Assembly: GCA_029210645.1 (NCBI GenBank)
Contig: JARGFT010000010.1
Location: 40,429 to 83,205, forward strand
Length of the DNA stretch: 42,777 nucleotides
Direction of reading: 5' to 3'
Origin: Anaerosomatales bacterium
GTDB taxonomy: Bacteria; Actinomycetota; Coriobacteriia; Anaerosomatales; SLCP01
Position numbers and translations under genes: made by a program. Positions 23,075 to 32,939 of this stretch are shown in pieces. Positions within the stretch are counted from its first letter, which is position 1; every line of letters starts with the position of its first letter. Under the pieces are notes generated by a model. The model saw only the letters and a program-made list of their open reading frames with translations. It did no database searches and was not told where the DNA came from.

Positions 23075-24493
23075 TCAGTCCTTGAGCACGGGCAGCCGCA
23101 GGGTGAAGCGCGCGCCGCCCTCGGGACGGTTCGCGGCCTCGATCTCGCCCGCGTGCGCGGTCACGATCGCCTTGACGATCGCCAGCCCGAGCCCGGAGCC
23201 GCCGCTCGTGCGGGCACGGCTCTGCTCGGTGCGATAGAAGCGGTCGAAGAGCCGGCCCAGGCTGGCCTCGGGGATGCCGGGTCCCTCGTCCAGGACGGAG
23301 AGTACGGCCCACTCGTCCTCGGCCCCCACCTCGACCCGCACCGTGGTGCCCTCGGCCACGCGCGTCGCGTTGTCCACGAGGTTGGCGATCACCTGCTGCA
23401 ACCGGTCCGGGTCGCCGAGCACCGCGGGCGCCTGGCCCGAGACCTCGACGGTGGCCTTGCGCTCGGCGAGTAGCGGTTCGAGTGCGGCGACGGCTCGGCG
23501 GGCGACCTCGGCAAGATCGAGCCTGCGGATCGGCAGCTCCCCTGTGGCGCCCTCGATGCGCTGCAGCGCGAGCAGGTCGTTGGCAAGGCGCGCGAGACGG
23601 TCCGACTCGCGAACGATCGTCGTGAGGAACCGCTCGGCGTCAGCGGGTGCGACATCGCCGTCGAGCAACGTCTCGGCGGCTCCGCGGATCGCCGTGAGCG
23701 GCGTGCGCAGTTCGTGGCTCACGTCCGAGACGAAGCGCGATTTGCGGCGCTCCTCGTTCTTCAGCTCGCTGACCACGTGTTCGACCCGGTCGGCCATGAT
23801 GTTGAACGCCTCGGCCACCGCACGGGTCTCGCGCGCGCCTACCGGTTCGACGCGCACCGTGAAGTCCCCGCCGGCGAATGCGGCCGTGCCGGTCGCCAGG
23901 CGGCGCAGCGGGCGCGCGAGCCAGCGAGACAGCAGCTCGGCCAGCACAAGTGTCGCTACCAGGAAGGCACCGAGCGCCCAGGCGAGTTGCTGTCGGTACT
24001 CGCGCAGCAGCAGCGTCACCGAGAGCGTGGGAGCAGAGGTGTACGTGGCCCCGATGATCTCACCGCCGGACCTGATCGGGTGGGCCACGTACATCGTGAA
24101 CAGCTCTTCCTCACCGGTGCGGGTGAACGCTCCGTACCTGCCGGCGAGCGCCTCCTGTATCTCGGCGCGCTCGCTGTAATCGATGCCCACGCCGGTCTCG
24201 CCCGCCGAGTCGGCCACCGCCACGCCCGCCCCGTCCAGGATGCGCAGTCGCGACGAGAGGTCAGGGTCCGCTTCGGCCAGTGCGGCCTGCAGCGATCCTG
24301 CCCCGCCGATCCCCCGCTCGCCCATGATCGCAGAGGCCACGAGCGCCTCACTGCCGAGACGGCTCTCGAGCTGGCGCAGGCCGAGCGACTCCATCTGGGC
24401 GAGGAAGTACCAGGAGAGCCCCGCCGCCGAGATGATCGCAACGGCAAGCAGCGAGGCGAAGAGCCGGGCCCGGATCGACAGGCTCAGGTACAT
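23075..24493 (-). CDS. Sensor histidine kinase (PhoR/WalK-like)
   Basis: This 472-residue kinase has membrane helices at about 12-33 and 169-190, flanking an extracytoplasmic sensor region of about 135 residues. A HAMP domain follows (WLARPLRRLATGTAAFAGGDF). HisKA has SDVSHELRTPLTAIRG with the phospho-accepting His260. HATPase motifs are VIANLVDNATRVA (N box), LDEGPGIPEASLGRLFDRF (G1/F box) and GGSGLGLAIVKAIV (G2). It lies seven bases after its response regulator gene in the same operon. The signal cannot be read from sequence. The ribosome binding site is weak, which suggests translational coupling. Confidence 0.93.
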   Translation of the reverse strand: MYLSLSIRARLFASLLAVAIISAAGLSWYFLAQMESLGLRQLESRLGSEALVASAIMGERGIGGAGSLQAALAEADPDLSSRLRILDGAGVAVADSAGETGVGIDYSERAEIQEALAGRYGAFTRTGEEELFTMYVAHPIRSGGEIIGATYTSAPTLSVTLLLREYRQQLAWALGAFLVATLVLAELLSRWLARPLRRLATGTAAFAGGDFTVRVEPVGARETRAVAEAFNIMADRVEHVVSELKNEERRKSRFVSDVSHELRTPLTAIRGAAETLLDGDVAPADAERFLTTIVRESDRLARLANDLLALQRIEGATGELPIRRLDLAEVARRAVAALEPLLAERKATVEVSGQAPAVLGDPDRLQQVIANLVDNATRVAEGTTVRVEVGAEDEWAVLSVLDEGPGIPEASLGRLFDRFYRTEQSRARTSGGSGLGLAIVKAIVTAHAGEIEAANRPEGGARFTLRLPVLKD

Positions 24494-24500
24494 CGGTTCG

Positions 24501-25208
24501 TCACGCCTGGATACGATAGCCGTAGCCGCGCACGGTCTCGACCACAGCGGAATCGACGCCGGCGGCGGCGAGTTTGTCGCGCAACCGCTTGATGTGCGTG
24601 TCGACCGTCTTGGTCTCCACGAGGTACTCCCAGCCCCAGGCCTGCTTGAGCAGCTGCTCGCGGCTGAGCACGTTGCCGGGGTAGCGCATCAGCGTGGCGA
24701 GCAGTTCGAACTCGCGCGGCGTCAGATCGATCAGCGCCCCGCCGAAGTGCGCTTCGTGCGTCGACTCGTCGAGTTCGATCCCGGCCGCCTCCAGCCGTTC
24801 ACCGGGCAGTTGGTCGGGGTGCGTGGGGGCGTGGGCCGCCGAGCGTCGCAGCAGTGCCTTCACCCGCGCCTGCAGCTCCCGGATCCCGAACGGCTTTGCC
24901 AGATAGTCGTCGCCGCCGAGTTCGAGTCCCACGACCTTGTCGAGCTCGGTGTCGCGGGCCGAGAGGAAGAGCACCGGGACCTCGCTGCGCACGCGTAGCT
25001 TGCGGCAGACTTCGTAGCCGTCCGAGCCGGGCAGCATGATGTCGAGGATGACGAGGTCGAACTCATGGGCTGCGGCCAGTTCGAGTGCCTCGTCGCCGGT
25101 CGAGGCGGTCTGGACCTCGTACCCTTCCTTCTTCAGGTTGTACGAGACGAACTCGAGGATCGAGTCCTCGTCGTCGACGACGAGGATCCGCGCAGTTCCG
25201 GTGGTCAT
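24501..25208 (-). CDS. OmpR/PhoB-family response regulator
   Basis: This 235-residue regulator has a receiver domain (ILVVDDEDSILEFVSYNL, LVILDIMLPGSDGYEVCRKL with phospho-acceptor Asp56, and LAKPFGIREL). A C-terminal winged helix follows (LTPREFELLATLMRYPGNVLSREQLL, then VDTHIKRLRDKL). The ATG is chosen over an upstream GTG because GGGAGG lies six bases before it on the minus strand. It is the first gene of the two-gene operon and is divergent from coaX. Targets are unknown. Confidence 0.94.
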   Translation of the reverse strand: MTTGTARILVVDDEDSILEFVSYNLKKEGYEVQTASTGDEALELAAAHEFDLVILDIMLPGSDGYEVCRKLRVRSEVPVLFLSARDTELDKVVGLELGGDDYLAKPFGIRELQARVKALLRRSAAHAPTHPDQLPGERLEAAGIELDESTHEAHFGGALIDLTPREFELLATLMRYPGNVLSREQLLKQAWGWEYLVETKTVDTHIKRLRDKLAAAGVDSAVVETVRGYGYRIQA

Positions 25209-25310
25209 GCGGCGCCTCCCGGTGTCGCGGGTTACCTGGGCCGATGATACCATTGAGCGCGCGGGTGCCTCTCGCGCGTCACCGTACCGTCACACAAGGG
25301 GGGAGCAGCG

Positions 25311-26075
25311 GTGATACTCGCTGTCGACGTCGGCAACACCCACACCGTCCTCGGCTTGTTCGACGAGTCGGGGCTCGACGGTCACTGGCGCGTGTCGAGC
25401 AACCAGGCGCTCACCTCCGACGAGCTCGGCGTGAAGGTCGCAGGCCTGCTCGCTGCCGACGGCCACTCCTGGGACGACATCGAACACGTCGTGCTCTGCT
25501 CCGTGGTTCCGCGCCTGACCGCTGCGTACGAGGAGATCGCCGAGCGTGCGTGCGGACGCGCGGCCATGGTGGTCGGTCCCGGCCTGAAGACCGGCATTCC
25601 GATCCGCTACGACAACCCGCACGAGGTCGGCGCCGACCGGATCGTCAACGGTGTGGCCGCCTACGAGACCCAAGGGGGTCCCGTGGTGGTGGTCGACTTC
25701 GGCACCGCGACCACCATCGACGTGATCGATGCTTCGGGAGCCTATCTTGGCGGTGCCATCGCTCCGGGCGTGGAGACGAGCGCCGAGGCGCTGTTCAGCA
25801 AGGCTGCCCGCATCGCCAAGGTCGATCTCGAGGCGCCGCTGAAGGTCATCGGCACCAATACCCGCGAGAGCGTGCAGGCCGGTCTGCTCATCGGGGAGGC
25901 GGTGATGGTCGACGGGCTCGTGCGCCGCGTGTGGGCCGAGCTCGGGACCGAGACTCCCGTGGTCGCGACGGGCGGGCTGGCCGAGAGCATGGCGCCGCTC
26001 TGCGAGACGATCACGGCGGTGGATGTCGACCTCACGCTCGAAGGGCTGATGATCGTCTACCAGCGCAACGTGTAG
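25311..26075 (+). CDS. coaX: Type III pantothenate kinase
   Basis: This 254-residue enzyme phosphorylates pantothenate, the first step of CoA synthesis from the PanB/PanC product. ASKHA-fold motifs are ILAVDVGNTHTVLGLFDE, VGADRIVNGVAAYE, VVDFGTATTIDVID, GGAIAPGVETSAEALFSKAA and NTRESVQAGLLIGEA. The GTG start follows GGGGGGAG. It is divergent from the response regulator, across a 102-base gap whose only promoter-like string is GATGATACCAT. Confidence 0.95.
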   Translation: MILAVDVGNTHTVLGLFDESGLDGHWRVSSNQALTSDELGVKVAGLLAADGHSWDDIEHVVLCSVVPRLTAAYEEIAERACGRAAMVVGPGLKTGIPIRYDNPHEVGADRIVNGVAAYETQGGPVVVVDFGTATTIDVIDASGAYLGGAIAPGVETSAEALFSKAARIAKVDLEAPLKVIGTNTRESVQAGLLIGEAVMVDGLVRRVWAELGTETPVVATGGLAESMAPLCETITAVDVDLTLEGLMIVYQRNV

Positions 26076-26094: not shown

Positions 26095-26125
26095 TATACT
26101 CACCGTGTACACATTCATGTACACG
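26095..26125 (+). promoter_or_regulatory. -10 box with inverted-repeat operator
   Basis: TATACT at 26095-26100 is a good -10 box. Three bases further on, CGTGTACA and TGTACACG form a perfect 8-bp inverted repeat with a 6-base spacer, lying across the expected transcription start. A bound repressor there would block initiation. The helix-turn-helix protein encoded 44 bases downstream is the simplest candidate for autoregulation. No clear -35 box is seen. Confidence 0.6.
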
Positions 26126-26168
26126 CGCATCGGCACGCGCCGTGCCCGCGCTCTCCGGGGAGGTCTGT

Positions 26169-26783
26169 GTGAGGTTCTTCCGCATCGGCGAGAAGGTCGT
26201 GAGCCAGGAGAAGCTCTTCGACTCGCTCGTCGAGATCCTGACCGACCGCGAGGCCGGGGCCACCCAGGAAGAGGTCGCTCGTAGCCACGGGGTGCAGCGC
26301 TCCTTCATCTCCTTCCTCGAGTCGCTCGGAGAGGTGCGTCGCGGTGCGCGCATCGCGCTCGTCGGCTTCCCGGTCGCCAACGCCGAGGAGGTGCGCGCGC
26401 TCGCCGCTGAGCACGGTGTCGACTTCGTGCTCGTGTTCAACCAGGCCGAGCGCGAGGACATCGAGGGCGCATCAGGTGGTGAGGTGTTCAACCGCCTGCT
26501 CGAAACGCTTGCGACCCTGCGCGACTACGACGTTATCATCCTCGCTGCGAGCGACTGGCGTATCGAGCTCATCGAACGCATCCTCGGCAAGGAGGTCGTC
26601 GGGATCCCGCTCGGGCACACGCCGCTGCGTGCGGACGTTACCGTTGACCTTGCCGAGCTCGAGCAGATCCTGACCGGCGTCCTGTCCGCGCGCGGGCCGC
26701 GCGCGAGGACGGGACGCGTGAGCGCCGCGCTGCGTGGCGCTGCCGAGCGCGCCGGGAGGTGGACGCCATCAAAGAGGTCGTGA
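26169..26783 (+). CDS. Helix-turn-helix regulator-like protein
   Basis: This 204-residue protein has an N-terminal helix-turn-helix (about residues 25-55, GATQEEVARSHGVQRSFISFLESLGEV). A Rossmann-like region follows (ARIALVGFPVANAEEVRALAAEHGVDFVLVFNQ, then DYDVIILAASDWRIELIERIL). Similar proteins occur beside the quinate-dehydrogenase-like gene in Clostridia, as I recall; the function is not established. The basic tail of about 30 residues is probably disordered. GTG at 26169 is preferred over 26142 because GGGGAGG precedes it. It overlaps the next gene, so they form a pair. Confidence 0.7.
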   Translation: MRFFRIGEKVVSQEKLFDSLVEILTDREAGATQEEVARSHGVQRSFISFLESLGEVRRGARIALVGFPVANAEEVRALAAEHGVDFVLVFNQAEREDIEGASGGEVFNRLLETLATLRDYDVIILAASDWRIELIERILGKEVVGIPLGHTPLRADVTVDLAELEQILTGVLSARGPRARTGRVSAALRGAAERAGRWTPSKRS

Positions 26784-27667
26784 GCGTCTCGCTCGGTTCC
26801 TCAGCGCGCGACCACGAAGTCGAGATCGAGCTGCTCGGTGAGGTCTTCCGTCTGAGGCGCGAGGGTTTCGACGGCGACATCGATCGCGCCGCCCGTCGCC
26901 TGGCCGAGCTCGACGGCACCGTTGACGTCCTGAGCCTGGGCGGCATCGACCTGTACCTGCGCGCCGCCGGTCACGACTATCACTTCCGCGCGGCCAGGCG
27001 GCTTGCGGCCGGTGTCAAGATCACGCCGCTCGTGTGCGGTGCTGCGCTCAAGGGGCCGCTGGAGCACGCGACGGTCGGGTTCATGCGCACCGAACTCGGC
27101 CTCGACCTCGCAGGCAAACGGGCGCTCGTCACCTCTGCGGTTGACCGGTACGGGCTTGCCGAGGGGCTGCTGGAGGCGGGCTGCGACCTGCGCTACGGCG
27201 ATCTGCTCTACGCGCTCGGGATACCGGTGCTCATCCGCGGGAAGCGCACACTCGATTTCCTGGTGCGTGTACTCGCCCCGGTCGTGGTTCAGCTGCCCTT
27301 CTCGTGGCTCTATCCCACCGGCTCGGCCCAGGACAAGCCCCCCTCGGCCAAGCGCACGAGCCTCTACGAGCGGTTCGACATCATCGCCGGCGACTACCAG
27401 TACGTCCGCAAGTTCATGCCGGAAGACATGCGGGGCAAGTGGGTCATCACCAACACCACCACCGCGGCCGATGTCGAGGAGATGCGAAGCCGGGGCGTCG
27501 AGCTGCTCGTCACGTCCACACCGCGGCTGGCCGGCCGTTCGTTCGGCACCAACGTCATCGAGGCCGCGCTCGTCGCGCTTGCCGGCTCGCGCACCGAACT
27601 CAGCTCCGAGGAGTACCTACGGCTACTCGCACAGGTGGGATTCGCACCCGATGTCCAGTGGCTGTGA
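26759..27667 (+). CDS. Conserved protein, quinate 5-dehydrogenase-like label
   Basis: This 302-residue protein begins KEVVSVSLGSSARDHEVEIELLGE and contains LSLGGIDLYLRAAGHDYHFR, ALVTSAVDRYGLAEGLLEAG, LRYGDLLYALGIPV, VQLPFSWLYPTGSAQDK, DIIAGDYQYVRKFMPEDMRG and PRLAGRSFGTNVIEAAL. This matches a family that databases often label quinate 5-dehydrogenase, but I see no classic dinucleotide motif and no shikimate-pathway neighbours, so that name is doubtful. The pairing with the HTH protein is its main context. The start is either GTG 26759 or GTG 26780, which would overlap the upstream stop by four bases. Confidence 0.65.
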   Translation: MDAIKEVVSVSLGSSARDHEVEIELLGEVFRLRREGFDGDIDRAARRLAELDGTVDVLSLGGIDLYLRAAGHDYHFRAARRLAAGVKITPLVCGAALKGPLEHATVGFMRTELGLDLAGKRALVTSAVDRYGLAEGLLEAGCDLRYGDLLYALGIPVLIRGKRTLDFLVRVLAPVVVQLPFSWLYPTGSAQDKPPSAKRTSLYERFDIIAGDYQYVRKFMPEDMRGKWVITNTTTAADVEEMRSRGVELLVTSTPRLAGRSFGTNVIEAALVALAGSRTELSSEEYLRLLAQVGFAPDVQWL

Positions 27668-27888: not shown

Positions 27889-28566
27889 GTGAACAAACGG
27901 GCGAGGATGCGCCTGATCGGCGTGACCGCCATCATCGCAATCTCCGTCGTCGCGATCGTCGTTGGTGTGGGCGCAGGAGATGGCTCGTACTCGCGCAACG
28001 TGAGTGACGTGGTCGTTGATCAGGAGCTCGTTGGCGAACGTGTACGCGTCACCGGCACCGTCATCCCCGGCTCCTGGGACAAGAAGTCGAGTCCCATGCG
28101 CTTCGACATCCGCGACGAAGGCGAGTCGTCCGGCCCGCAGATCTCCGTCGTCTACAACGGTGGCGTCCCGAGCACCTTCGGTGACGAGGTCACCGCGATC
28201 ATCACCGGCGTCATCAACACCGACGGGGTCCTCGAGTCGGAGGACATGATCACCAAGTGCCCGTCGAAGTATGAGTCTGCGACCGGAGCACTCACCATCG
28301 CCGACCTGCTCTCCGAGGGCGATGACGTCATCGGCAACTCAGTGCGCCTGACCGGCTTCGTGGTCGATGGGAGCATCCAGCCTCCGGGCGGCGAAACCCG
28401 CTTCACCATCGTCGACGAACGCGGTGACCCCTCCCTTGACGTCTTCTACGACGGCGCGCTGCCCGAGGGCATGGTCGACGGATCGCAGGTGGTCCTCGGC
28501 GGGCTCCTCGACGAGCAGGGAGTGTTCGACGCGGTCAGCGTTTCGATGTCGGATACCGAGCAGTAA
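27889..28566 (+). CDS. ccmE: CcmE haem chaperone, cysteine type, tandem OB domains
   Basis: This 225-residue membrane-anchored protein has its anchor at residues 8-27. The first OB-like domain (about 40-122, GERVRVTGTVIPGSW, RFDIRDEGE, ISVVYNGGVPSTFGDEVTAI) ends in KCPSKYES. This is the CxxxY haem-binding motif (C124, Y128) that replaces the usual HxxxY in some lineages. A second, similar OB-like domain (about 147-220, SVRLTGFVVDG, TRFTIVDER, LDVFYDGALPEGMVDGSQVVLGG) follows and lacks a haem motif. CcmE proteins normally have one such domain. The GTG start has AAAGGAG at the right distance. It is first in the ccm operon. Confidence 0.88.
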   Translation: MNKRARMRLIGVTAIIAISVVAIVVGVGAGDGSYSRNVSDVVVDQELVGERVRVTGTVIPGSWDKKSSPMRFDIRDEGESSGPQISVVYNGGVPSTFGDEVTAIITGVINTDGVLESEDMITKCPSKYESATGALTIADLLSEGDDVIGNSVRLTGFVVDGSIQPPGGETRFTIVDERGDPSLDVFYDGALPEGMVDGSQVVLGGLLDEQGVFDAVSVSMSDTEQ

Positions 28567-28581
28567 CAGCAGAGGAACGAG

Positions 28582-28607
28582 AGGGGCGTCCGACTGAGGG
28601 CGCCCCT
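28582..28607. terminator. Intercistronic hairpin after ccmE
   Basis: AGGGGCG and CGCCCCT can pair around a short loop, 16 bases after the ccmE stop. With no T tract it may attenuate or protect the transcript rather than end it. The gap before ccmF is 104 bases, the longest inside the ccm cluster. Confidence 0.4.
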
Positions 28608-28670
28608 GTGACCTGCAAGCGCCCCGGGGGCCCGTGCCCGCGCGGCAAGGCGGAAGTGGAGTAGAAGCGT

Positions 28671-30716
<2,046 letters not shown>

Positions 30717-30727
30717 CCCGGCCGTTG

Positions 30728-31459
30728 ATGACAGAACCAGCCACCATAGATGCGGCAGTCGAGGTCCGGGATCTGACCCGGACCTTCGGCGCGCGCAAAG
30801 CGCTCGACCGCGTGAGCTTCGACCTGCCCCGGGGTGCGTTCCTCTCCGTCTTCGGGCCCAACGGCGCGGGCAAGACCACGCTCGTCAAGGTGCTCACCAC
30901 GCTCACGGCCCCCTCAAAGGGCACGGCGAAGGTGAGCGGCTTCGACGTGGTGGCCGACGCGGTCGAGCTGCGCAGCGAGATCGGGCTGATCAGCCACAAC
31001 CCGCTGCTCTACCCCGATCTGTCCGCCGAGGAGAACCTCGTGTTCTTCGCGGACATGTACGGCGTTCCTGATGCCGCCGCGCGCGTGCGCGAGCTGCTCG
31101 TCGCCGTCGAGCTCGACCACCGCCGGCTCGACCTCGTGCGCACGTTCTCGCGCGGCATGCTGCAGCGGCTCTCGATCGCCCGGGCGCTGCTGCACCGTCC
31201 CAAGGTGCTCTTCTTGGACGAGCCCTACTCGGGGCTCGATCCTCACGCGGTCGAGATCCTCGACCACCTCATCGAGCAGATCCGCGCCGACCACACCTTC
31301 GTCATGATCAGTCACGACCTCGCCAAGGGGCTCGCGCTCTGCAGCCACGCGCTCATTCTTGCGAAAGGCAAGGTCGTGCTCTCCGCACCCCGCGAGGAGC
31401 TCGACGAGGCGGAGTTTGCCGAGACCTACCGGGCGACCGTCGGCCTGGGGGTGGCGTGA
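30728..31459 (+). CDS. ccmA: CcmA-like ABC ATPase
   Basis: This 243-residue ATPase has Walker A FGPNGAGKTTLVK, signature FSRGMLQRLSIARALL and Walker B VLFLDEPYSGLD, with switch His in MISHDLAKG. The signature reads FSRGM where LSGGQ is standard, as is common in related heme or multidrug exporters. With CcmB and CcmC it releases haem-loaded CcmE. The open frame extends upstream into ccmF, but ATG 30728 gives the normal N-terminus. ccmB begins one base after the stop. Confidence 0.94.
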   Translation: MTEPATIDAAVEVRDLTRTFGARKALDRVSFDLPRGAFLSVFGPNGAGKTTLVKVLTTLTAPSKGTAKVSGFDVVADAVELRSEIGLISHNPLLYPDLSAEENLVFFADMYGVPDAAARVRELLVAVELDHRRLDLVRTFSRGMLQRLSIARALLHRPKVLFLDEPYSGLDPHAVEILDHLIEQIRADHTFVMISHDLAKGLALCSHALILAKGKVVLSAPREELDEAEFAETYRATVGLGVA

Positions 31460-31460
31460 C

Positions 31461-32174
31461 GTGGCGGGCGAGGCGAGGGGTCTGAGCTTGAGGCAGTTCA
31501 AGGCGATCCTGCACAAGGACATCGTCATGGAGCTGCGCACCAAAGAGATGATCACTTCGATGGGCCTCTACGCGCTGCTCACGATGGTCATCTACCAGGT
31601 GGCACTCTCCCAGTCCGGCACGGCCTTCGACCCCCGCAACATCGCGGCCGGTCTGCTCTGGCTGGCGTTTGTCTTCACCTCGATGCTCGGCCTGAACCGG
31701 TCGCTCGTGCACGAGAAGGACCAGGGCTGCCTCGAGGCGCTGCTGCTCTCGCCGGTCGACCGCCCGGTCATCTTCTTCGCAAAGGCGATCGGCAACCTGA
31801 TCTTCCTGCTCATCGTCCAGGCGCTCACCATCCCCGTGTTCGCCTTCCTCTTCCTGCAGCAAGGCAGCTATGCCGGTGAGTGGTGGATGATCCCGCTCGC
31901 GCTGCTCGCGGGGGCTGTCGGGATTTCCGGAGTGGGCACGCTCCTTGCGACTATGTCGGTCAACACCAAGGGTAAGGACTTCGTTTTGGCGGTGCTCTTC
32001 GTCCCGCTCATGTACCCGCTCCTGCTCGCTGCCGTCTCGGCGACGAGTGCCGCGGTGCTGGGTGGTGACGGTTCGGTGCAGCAGTTCTGGACCGGCATGG
32101 GCATGATGGCGGGATTCGATGCGATAATGCTGTTGGCATCCTTCGCGCTCTACGAGTTCATCGTCGGAGCGTAA
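31461..32174 (+). CDS. ccmB: CcmB cytochrome c maturation permease
   Basis: This 237-residue protein has about six membrane helices and the CcmB pattern: LRQFKAILHKDIVMELRTKEM at the N-terminus, NRSLVHEKDQGCLEALLLSPVDRP, then IPLALLAGAVGISGVGTLLATMSVNTKGKD. It pairs with CcmA. The GTG immediately follows the ccmA stop. The reading frame is open earlier, but that region is inside ccmA. Confidence 0.93.
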   Translation: MAGEARGLSLRQFKAILHKDIVMELRTKEMITSMGLYALLTMVIYQVALSQSGTAFDPRNIAAGLLWLAFVFTSMLGLNRSLVHEKDQGCLEALLLSPVDRPVIFFAKAIGNLIFLLIVQALTIPVFAFLFLQQGSYAGEWWMIPLALLAGAVGISGVGTLLATMSVNTKGKDFVLAVLFVPLMYPLLLAAVSATSAAVLGGDGSVQQFWTGMGMMAGFDAIMLLASFALYEFIVGA

Positions 32175-32219
32175 GCGTAGGGAAGTCCGTCAGCCGAGGC
32201 TGTGGAGGTAGATGCGACG

Positions 32220-32939
32220 TTGAACAGAAACATCCTGGTCTTGTCCATGCTCGTGCTCGGCGGGGTACTGACGACCGTGGGTTTCATCATGGCGTTCTTC
32301 TTCACGCCGCCGGTGCTCGGCCCCGCCGTCACCAACGAGGCCGGACGGATCCTCGGCTACCAACCGCTCTTCTCGCAGAAGATCTTCTACTTCCACGTGC
32401 CCGTGGCCCTCTCGAGCTTCCTCGTCTTCTTCTTCACCGCGTTTTACGGCGTACGTTTCCTCATGACCAAGGAGAAGCAGTACGACACGCGGGCGAAGGT
32501 CGCCACCGAGGTCACGCTCATGTTCGTCATCCTCACGATGGCAACGGGCGTACTGTGGACCCGCTTCGAGTGGGGTCGCTGGTGGGTGTGGGAGCCGAGG
32601 CTCACCACGTACTTCATCATGACGCTGCTCGTCATCGCGTACTTCGTGCTCCGCAACTCCATCGAAGACGAGGAGCGGCGCGCCACTTACGCGGCGGTGT
32701 TCGGCATCATCGCATTCATCGATGCACCCATCTCTTTCGCGATTACCCGCATCATCCCGTCCTCGGTCCACCCCGTGGTGCTTCGCAGCGGCGGCGGGCT
32801 GACCGGCTCGCAGCTCGCCGCGTTTCTCATCGGGCTGTTCGGGATGCTCATGATCGCCTACGCGATATTCAACACGCGCATGCGTGAGGAACTGGTCCAC
32901 GACCGCCTCGAGGCCGTCAAGGCCGCGCTGGAGGGCTAG
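32220..32939 (+). CDS. ccmC: CcmC haem-handling membrane protein
   Basis: This 239-residue protein loads haem onto CcmE. FSQKIFYFHVPVALSSFLVFF carries the first external His. TRFEWGRWWVWEPRLTTYF is the tryptophan-rich motif, with Glu where Asp is usual. SSVHPVVLRSGGGL carries the second His. Six helices are expected. The start is uncertain: TTG at 32220, eleven bases after GGAGG, or GTG at 32202 adding six residues. ccmD follows 19 bases later. Confidence 0.93.
   Translation: MNRNILVLSMLVLGGVLTTVGFIMAFFFTPPVLGPAVTNEAGRILGYQPLFSQKIFYFHVPVALSSFLVFFFTAFYGVRFLMTKEKQYDTRAKVATEVTLMFVILTMATGVLWTRFEWGRWWVWEPRLTTYFIMTLLVIAYFVLRNSIEDEERRATYAAVFGIIAFIDAPISFAITRIIPSSVHPVVLRSGGGLTGSQLAAFLIGLFGMLMIAYAIFNTRMREELVHDRLEAVKAALEG

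Follow-up and report, generated by a model that had tools for sequence, protein, structure and literature searches.

An operator shared by a putative autorepressor gene and an unlinked alpha-oxoamine synthase gene in Coriobacteriia and other bacteria

The window analyzed here is a stretch of 42,777 nucleotides from the genome of an Anaerosomatales bacterium (contig JARGFT010000010.1, positions 40,429 to 83,205). It contains two genes, termed A and B, whose reading frames overlap by 25 nt and which follow coaX on the same strand (Table 1). The identity of coaX is indicated by its orthologues, which occupy the same slot, match the Pfam family Pan_kinase and cluster together across loci. An earlier reading of the window, made from its letters and ORFs without database searches (hereafter, the sequence-only reading), had placed an operator at the start of a two-gene operon. 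We confirmed both the inverted repeat and the operon: the repeat is perfect and three bases separate it from the TATACT box. A simple sigma-70 scan of the A-B promoter passed no pair of promoter elements. The most plausible start codon of A is the GTG at 26169, which is common to relatives, and the position 26142 merely begins the longest mechanical ORF. The motif TGTACA-N6-TGTACA is present as a single copy in the window (0.09 expected at up to two mismatches), and its exact form is present as a single copy in the entire genome (1.98 Mb). An improved consensus is made of two 8-bp halves, TGTRYACA-N4-TGTRYACA, whose centres are 12 bp apart.

Table 1. Position of the A-B locus features in the window.
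Feature	Position	Strand	Basis or remark
coaX (type III pantothenate kinase), neighbour 5' of A-B	25311..26075	+	ORF; context only
-10 box TATACT of the A-B promoter	26095..26100	+	sequence; kept at this place in most operator-bearing relatives
operator, perfect inverted repeat CGTGTACACATTCATGTACACG	26104..26125	.	sequence
operator in consensus register, TGTACACA-TTCA-TGTACACG	26106-26125		
likely ribosome binding site GGGGAGGT	26157..26164	+	sequence
gene A, 204 aa, HTH + Rossmann-like domain, putative autorepressor	26169..26783	+	
gene B, 302 aa, acyl-ACP-reductase-like fold without GxxGxxG motif	26759..27667	+	

Other features surround this locus. Downstream of B, the window carries CcmE-, CcmF-, CcmA-, CcmB- and CcmC-like ORFs (27892-32939; assigned by eye from the ORF list), which look like a cytochrome c biogenesis cluster. 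On the minus strand, a sensor kinase and a response regulator (23075-25253; PhoR/PhoB-like by eye) are divergent from coaX.

We searched for relatives of protein B by sequence and by structure. B matched no Pfam family (including PF01488) and no NCBIfam family (including TIGR04058) up to an E-value of 10, and the comparison of its sequence to the PDB returned nothing useful. Its structure model is confident (pLDDT 93.6, pTM 0.90), and this predicted structure presents the two-domain fold of the acyl-ACP reductases (AAR) according to both Foldseek and VIA-align. The top Foldseek match was an acyl-ACP reductase (E = 7.6e-07, prob 1.00, TMq 0.48), and the top of 1000 chains in VIA-align was the AAR 6jzq (Z 13.9; rmsd 4.5 over 243 residues), with the carmabin TAD domain (Z 13.0), glutamate dehydrogenase (10.8) and the shikimate dehydrogenase 2hk7 (9.2) further down. 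AAR (6JZQ and others; TIGR04058, COG5322) represents the nearest fold over most of B's length, but B shows no significant sequence match to it and differs at two key places. First, the usual nucleotide motif is missing, as the sequence-only reading had stated: B contains neither GxxGxxG nor another glycine-rich NAD(P) motif, and SAVDRxG (residues 126-132) is found at this place. Second, according to motif mapping, an asparagine would occupy the position of the catalytic cysteine. Four motifs were mapped by hand onto B in colinear order: LGGFTS to LGGIDLY, TTGNTHT to VDGSGLK (VCGAALK in the protein of the window), GATGDIG to SAVDRxG and C(F/M)xE to N-V-I-E268. In this register, which derives from the colinear motifs with a non-significant profile alignment, the catalytic cysteine (C294 in the AAR of S. 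elongatus, according to PMC9594044) would correspond to Asn265. Profile-profile alignments of B with the reductase C described below were not significant under several settings (E 0.15 to 0.17), and the homology of B with AAR therefore rests on the fold and on the order of the motifs. B probably lacks the catalytic cysteine of the related reductases. Across 94 sequences, 26 columns are invariant, and R130, N265 and E268 are conserved in 94/94. This strong conservation and these invariant polar residues suggest that B is probably active rather than a decayed copy. A TGA stop was observed inside B of one genome (G013:C53:2317-3222), which reflects either decay or a sequencing error.

We then analyzed the distribution of B and its neighbors. 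Of the 61 relatives of the window's genome, 36 encode B. Among 84,980 species genomes scanned, 205 stretches encode a B relative; the best 80 of these 205 were kept, and their titles mostly name Coriobacteriia, Eremiobacterota, Clostridia/Bacillota and Anaerolineae. The closest named relatives among these best 80 are two Coriobacteriia MAGs (98% and 86% identity in B), and none of the plasmid records encodes B. Nearly all Coriobacteriia loci, and some of the Clostridia loci, have gene A directly 5' of B. In Clostridia, A-B or B lies inside a coaX-dusB-greA-lysS block. The gene-neighborhood survey proposed with the sequence-only reading thus bore out the recurrence of the pair in Clostridia. 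The description of the pair as an orphan was not supported, since the operator also precedes an unlinked alpha-oxoamine synthase (AOS) gene and, in other phyla, acyl-thioester reductases and aminotransferases are encoded next to A and B. The neighborhood of B in Eremiobacterota additionally includes a class III aminotransferase and an amino acid permease.

Of the 110 loci scanned, 31 encode a reductase, C, next to B, and none of these 31 comes from the Coriobacteriia relatives unless the more distant L052 (titled Subteraquimicrobium) is counted. By sequence, C resembles the reductase domain of PigE and acyl-ACP reductase (respectively, 4ppm, E 7e-39; 6jzq, E 5e-30), and in family searches conducted on chosen representatives it matched NF053554 and TIGR04058 under their equivalog cut-offs. 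C, the neighbor of B in other genomes, is a sequence relative of AAR with GxxGxxG and the cysteine. Among the 27 sequences aligned (27 of the 31 loci with a C match), 19 keep both the GxxGxxG motif and the cysteine and eight are degenerate. The nucleotide motif and/or the cysteine were lost in the decaying C of L068, L071, L076, L082, L088, L095, L097 and L102. ORFs of approximately 280 residues occupy the C slot in L077, L090, L094, L109, L111 and L112, and these may be further-decayed copies of C.

The shared fold, the adjacency of C and the loss of the nucleotide motif in B are also consistent with B being a catalytically dead paralogue that pairs with C, or a scaffold or regulator of C. 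This possibility has some appeal, but we consider it rather unlikely: B is strongly conserved while the adjacent C decays or is absent, and the window's genome encodes B without any C-type reductase (best E 0.03). We favor B as a probably active protein, which is a frequent but non-obligatory companion of A.

We further analyzed the association of the operator with gene A. Sites were scored with the pattern TGTRYACA-N(3-5)-TGTRYACA (at least 13/16 matches) in the 120 nt 5' of the gene. The counts include each locus a single time even if several collections contained it, and leave out the window's own locus as well as any locus with under 60 nt of upstream sequence. L031, in which the contig start truncates A, was placed with the loci without A. 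The operator was found at 36 of 46 distinct A loci (shuffles: mean 0.52, max 3) and at one of 47 loci with B but without adjacent A (shuffles: mean 0.40), a difference with P = 1.7e-15 when ignoring shared ancestry (Fisher test). An operator not conserved with the pair, named in the sequence-only reading as a result that would overturn it, was thus not what we observed, and the proposal of autoregulation through this site is supported. In most loci, a TATACT or TATAAT box lies at most a few bases from the beginning of the site, and the operator would therefore cover the start point of transcription. Because the operator tracks A, this protein is very probably an autorepressor; we infer binding by A from this association, and repression rather than activation from the position of the site on or just after the -10 box.

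No site was detected within 120 nt upstream of the remaining 10 of the 46 A loci. In the window's own family, the site is missing before A in L008 to L011, where A sits close behind coaX, and the corresponding genomes (G004, G005, G006 and G008) retain a site before AOS. In L079, a site lies 893 nt upstream of A, perhaps before coaX. Across the 61 relatives, A and a perfect site were both found in 30 genomes, A only in two, a site only in three and neither in 26. In G024, which is one of the A-only relatives, the AOS locus contains a site with one mismatch. No site was found in the relatives with B but without A (0/4); G010, G017, G025 and G037 retain B without A, orthologous AOS or site.

The search for further sites in the window's genome revealed a second putative target. 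Three sites match the consensus with at most one mismatch, one of them being the A-B operator, and none was found with the reversed pattern. The only zero-mismatch site (C3:33963; G000:C3:33963-33982) precedes an AOS gene that is unlinked to A-B, where it is located directly behind a TATAGT box and approximately 50 nt upstream of the gene. The third operator-like site of this genome contains one mismatch (G000:C16:1295-1314; L182). Perfect sites are present in 33 of the 61 relatives, against none of the 61 for the reversed pattern. Counting two overlapping site pairs once each, these relatives contain 44 distinct sites, of which 43 precede either A (11) or AOS (32, that is, 31 by coordinates and one in G023, where the contig end cuts AOS). 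The other site, G046:C77:4129, has neither gene behind it.

We extended the search to 18 further A-B genomes, mostly Bacillota, using a looser pattern (one match for the control). Sites were detected in 12 of these 18 genomes, with a total of 16 distinct sites. Half of them precede A (three identified by tblastn and the rest identical to sites already scored at A loci), seven precede AOS and one precedes a fusion of 870 residues between a class III aminotransferase and a reductase. At the seven Bacillota loci, the site-bearing AOS is 39 to 46% identical to the AOS of the window's genome. The gene behind AOS in L202 encodes a 3-ketodihydrosphingosine-reductase-like SDR (E 4e-58, under the cut-off), and the start of a protein similar to this SDR is found in L203 and L208. 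A zinc dehydrogenase is encoded behind AOS in L205 and L206.

These neighbors bear on the nature of the regulated AOS. The protein belongs to the AOS sequence family (bioF, SPT and glycine C-acetyltransferase models, E 1e-101 to 1e-118) and remains under every curated cut-off, the nearest being bioF (395.5 of 426.45); it scored 391.6 of 640 bits against the curated SPT model NF047600, below its cut-off. Its nearest PDB entry is a bacterial SPT. The regulated AOS could instead be BioF or Kbl, in which case the regulon would serve biotin or threonine/glycine metabolism rather than acyl-derived amines. The bioF and glycine C-acetyltransferase models indeed score about level with the SPT model, a Thermus BioF/Kbl is nearly tied with SPT in the PDB, and the zinc dehydrogenase of L205 and L206 would also fit. 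However, BioB and Tdh each reached the cut-off in one of 21 relatives, in each case next to a second AOS copy that does not carry the operator, and the aminotransferase that this type of operator precedes forms a fusion with a thioester reductase, a layout that is not BioA-like. The identification of the regulated AOS as BioF or Kbl is therefore unlikely, and we set it aside in favor of a possible role in acyl-derived amine metabolism.

As a control, we searched 22 genomes with B but without adjacent A (control pattern: one match). Sixteen of these 22 genomes contain no site, and the other six contain eight distinct sites. In four of the six (G087, G094, G095 and G099), A is present elsewhere in the genome behind a site, and the next gene encodes a C-type reductase (three genomes) or an 880-residue aminotransferase-reductase fusion (one genome). 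No A match was found at the site in G085 and G098. Four of the eight sites (L217, L218, L221 and L222) presented no match to A, B, C, aminotransferase or AOS.

The operator might belong to another regulator, with A being merely a frequent neighbor, given that binding of A to the operator is deduced from sequence comparisons and that three relatives (G001, G034 and G035) present a site before AOS although A was not found. We consider this improbable, since sites accompany A even when it is parted from B, as in the four genomes above, and are absent when A does not accompany B. Moreover, the completeness of the three exceptional genomes is 82 to 91%, and B, a neighbor of A in other genomes, was not found in them either. 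The reading of A as the protein that binds the operator fits these distributions better.

The domain organization of A agrees with the sequence-only reading, which had proposed an HTH joined to a Rossmann-like domain. The HTH spans approximately residues 13-53 (helices in the model and weak profile matches to HTH structures, E 0.0026 and up) and the Rossmann-like domain approximately residues 60-175. No Pfam or NCBIfam family reached its cut-off for A, and the putative sensor domain matches none of the families tested. The proposed fold search, which was informative for B by pointing to acyl-ACP reductase, yielded no reliable structural relative for A; PurE/LarB-like and Rex matches were rejected as too weak. 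A resembles Rex and other autoregulated HTH repressors in combining an HTH with a Rossmann-like domain and in having a palindromic operator at its own promoter, but differs from them by a sensor domain without family match. A role of A in Rex-type redox sensing, rather than in the sensing of an amine-pathway metabolite, is quite improbable: Rex is the top Foldseek match (E 5.2e-3, prob 0.63), but the match is unreliable (TMq 0.22, rmsd 14), a second fold search returned no Rex among the 50 matches listed, and the Rossmann-like domain opens with VGFPVAN instead of a GxGxxG motif. In G046, a TGA stop was observed inside A (G046:C52:2619-3167), again due to decay or to a sequencing error. Turning to the partner of A, the label of quinate 5-dehydrogenase mentioned for B in the sequence-only reading was not supported, and a working quinate or shikimate dehydrogenase is most improbable despite the presence of 2hk7 in the VIA-align results, since B has no Pfam match and no glycine-rich motif and its fold is better matched by acyl-ACP reductases.

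These results suggest, with reasonable probability, that A represents a new family of regulators controlling acyl-thioester-to-amine chemistry. According to this model, A would be an autorepressor with an N-terminal HTH and a Rossmann-like sensor domain, which would bind TGTRYACA-N4-TGTRYACA at or just after the -10 box and thereby block transcription. Its regulon would consist of the A-B operon and the single unlinked AOS gene in the window's genome, and would additionally include acyl-thioester reductases, class III aminotransferases and ketoreductases in other genomes. B would contribute a reductase fold without nucleotide motif. The least certain step is the common denominator of these genes, whose products would turn an acyl thioester into an amine or an aminoketone. 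A more far-reaching view, which we propose tentatively and regard as somewhat doubtful, is that A is a new repressor family sensing an amine, aldehyde or thioester derived from an acyl chain and that B is a new class of enzymes, which adopt the acyl-reductase fold but work with neither a dinucleotide motif nor a catalytic cysteine. Along with AOS, the reductases and the aminotransferases, they might then constitute an undescribed and widespread amine-lipid pathway of Coriobacteriia, Clostridia, Eremiobacterota and others.

The kinds of enzymes found beside B are already known. TamH, in which a transaminase is fused to a thioester reductase, is reported to produce amines from fatty acyl thioesters (PMC9594044), and its layout is shared by KecF, which belongs to the koreenceine cluster (PMC6498172). 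In comparison with the transaminase-thioester-reductase enzymes TamH, KecF and PigE (PMC9594044, PMC6498172, PMC8341465), L207 and L225 present the class III aminotransferase followed by the reductase in the TamH/KecF order, behind the operator in L207 and behind the operator and A in L225. They differ from these systems by their occurrence in anaerobes under the operator of A. In the open-licence literature, we found no description of A, the operator, the regulon or the chemistry of B. The present analysis turns a misleadingly labelled protein pair into a defined regulon in two phyla, with an operator, a second target and a chemical theme. It also provides a first handle on the conserved B family, which falls outside the Pfam and NCBIfam models, and points to poorly cultured anaerobes as possible producers of new amine lipids, or of amine signals. 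If the model is correct, a family of regulators with a new sensor domain would be added to those known.

A further comparison can be made with SPT and 3-ketodihydrosphingosine reductase. In addition to the proximity of AOS to bacterial SPT in the PDB, a KdsR-like SDR adjoins AOS in L202, but AOS and this SDR, which were compared by sequence, both fall under the curated cut-offs. No ketoreductase was detected beside AOS in the window's genome. Finally, in the Coriobacteriia genomes examined, two large HD-domain proteins are encoded 3' of the operator-controlled AOS (L179, 408-4657; L184, 6795-11143), with GGDEF domains also present in three of the four, which suggests cyclic-di-GMP signalling nearby.
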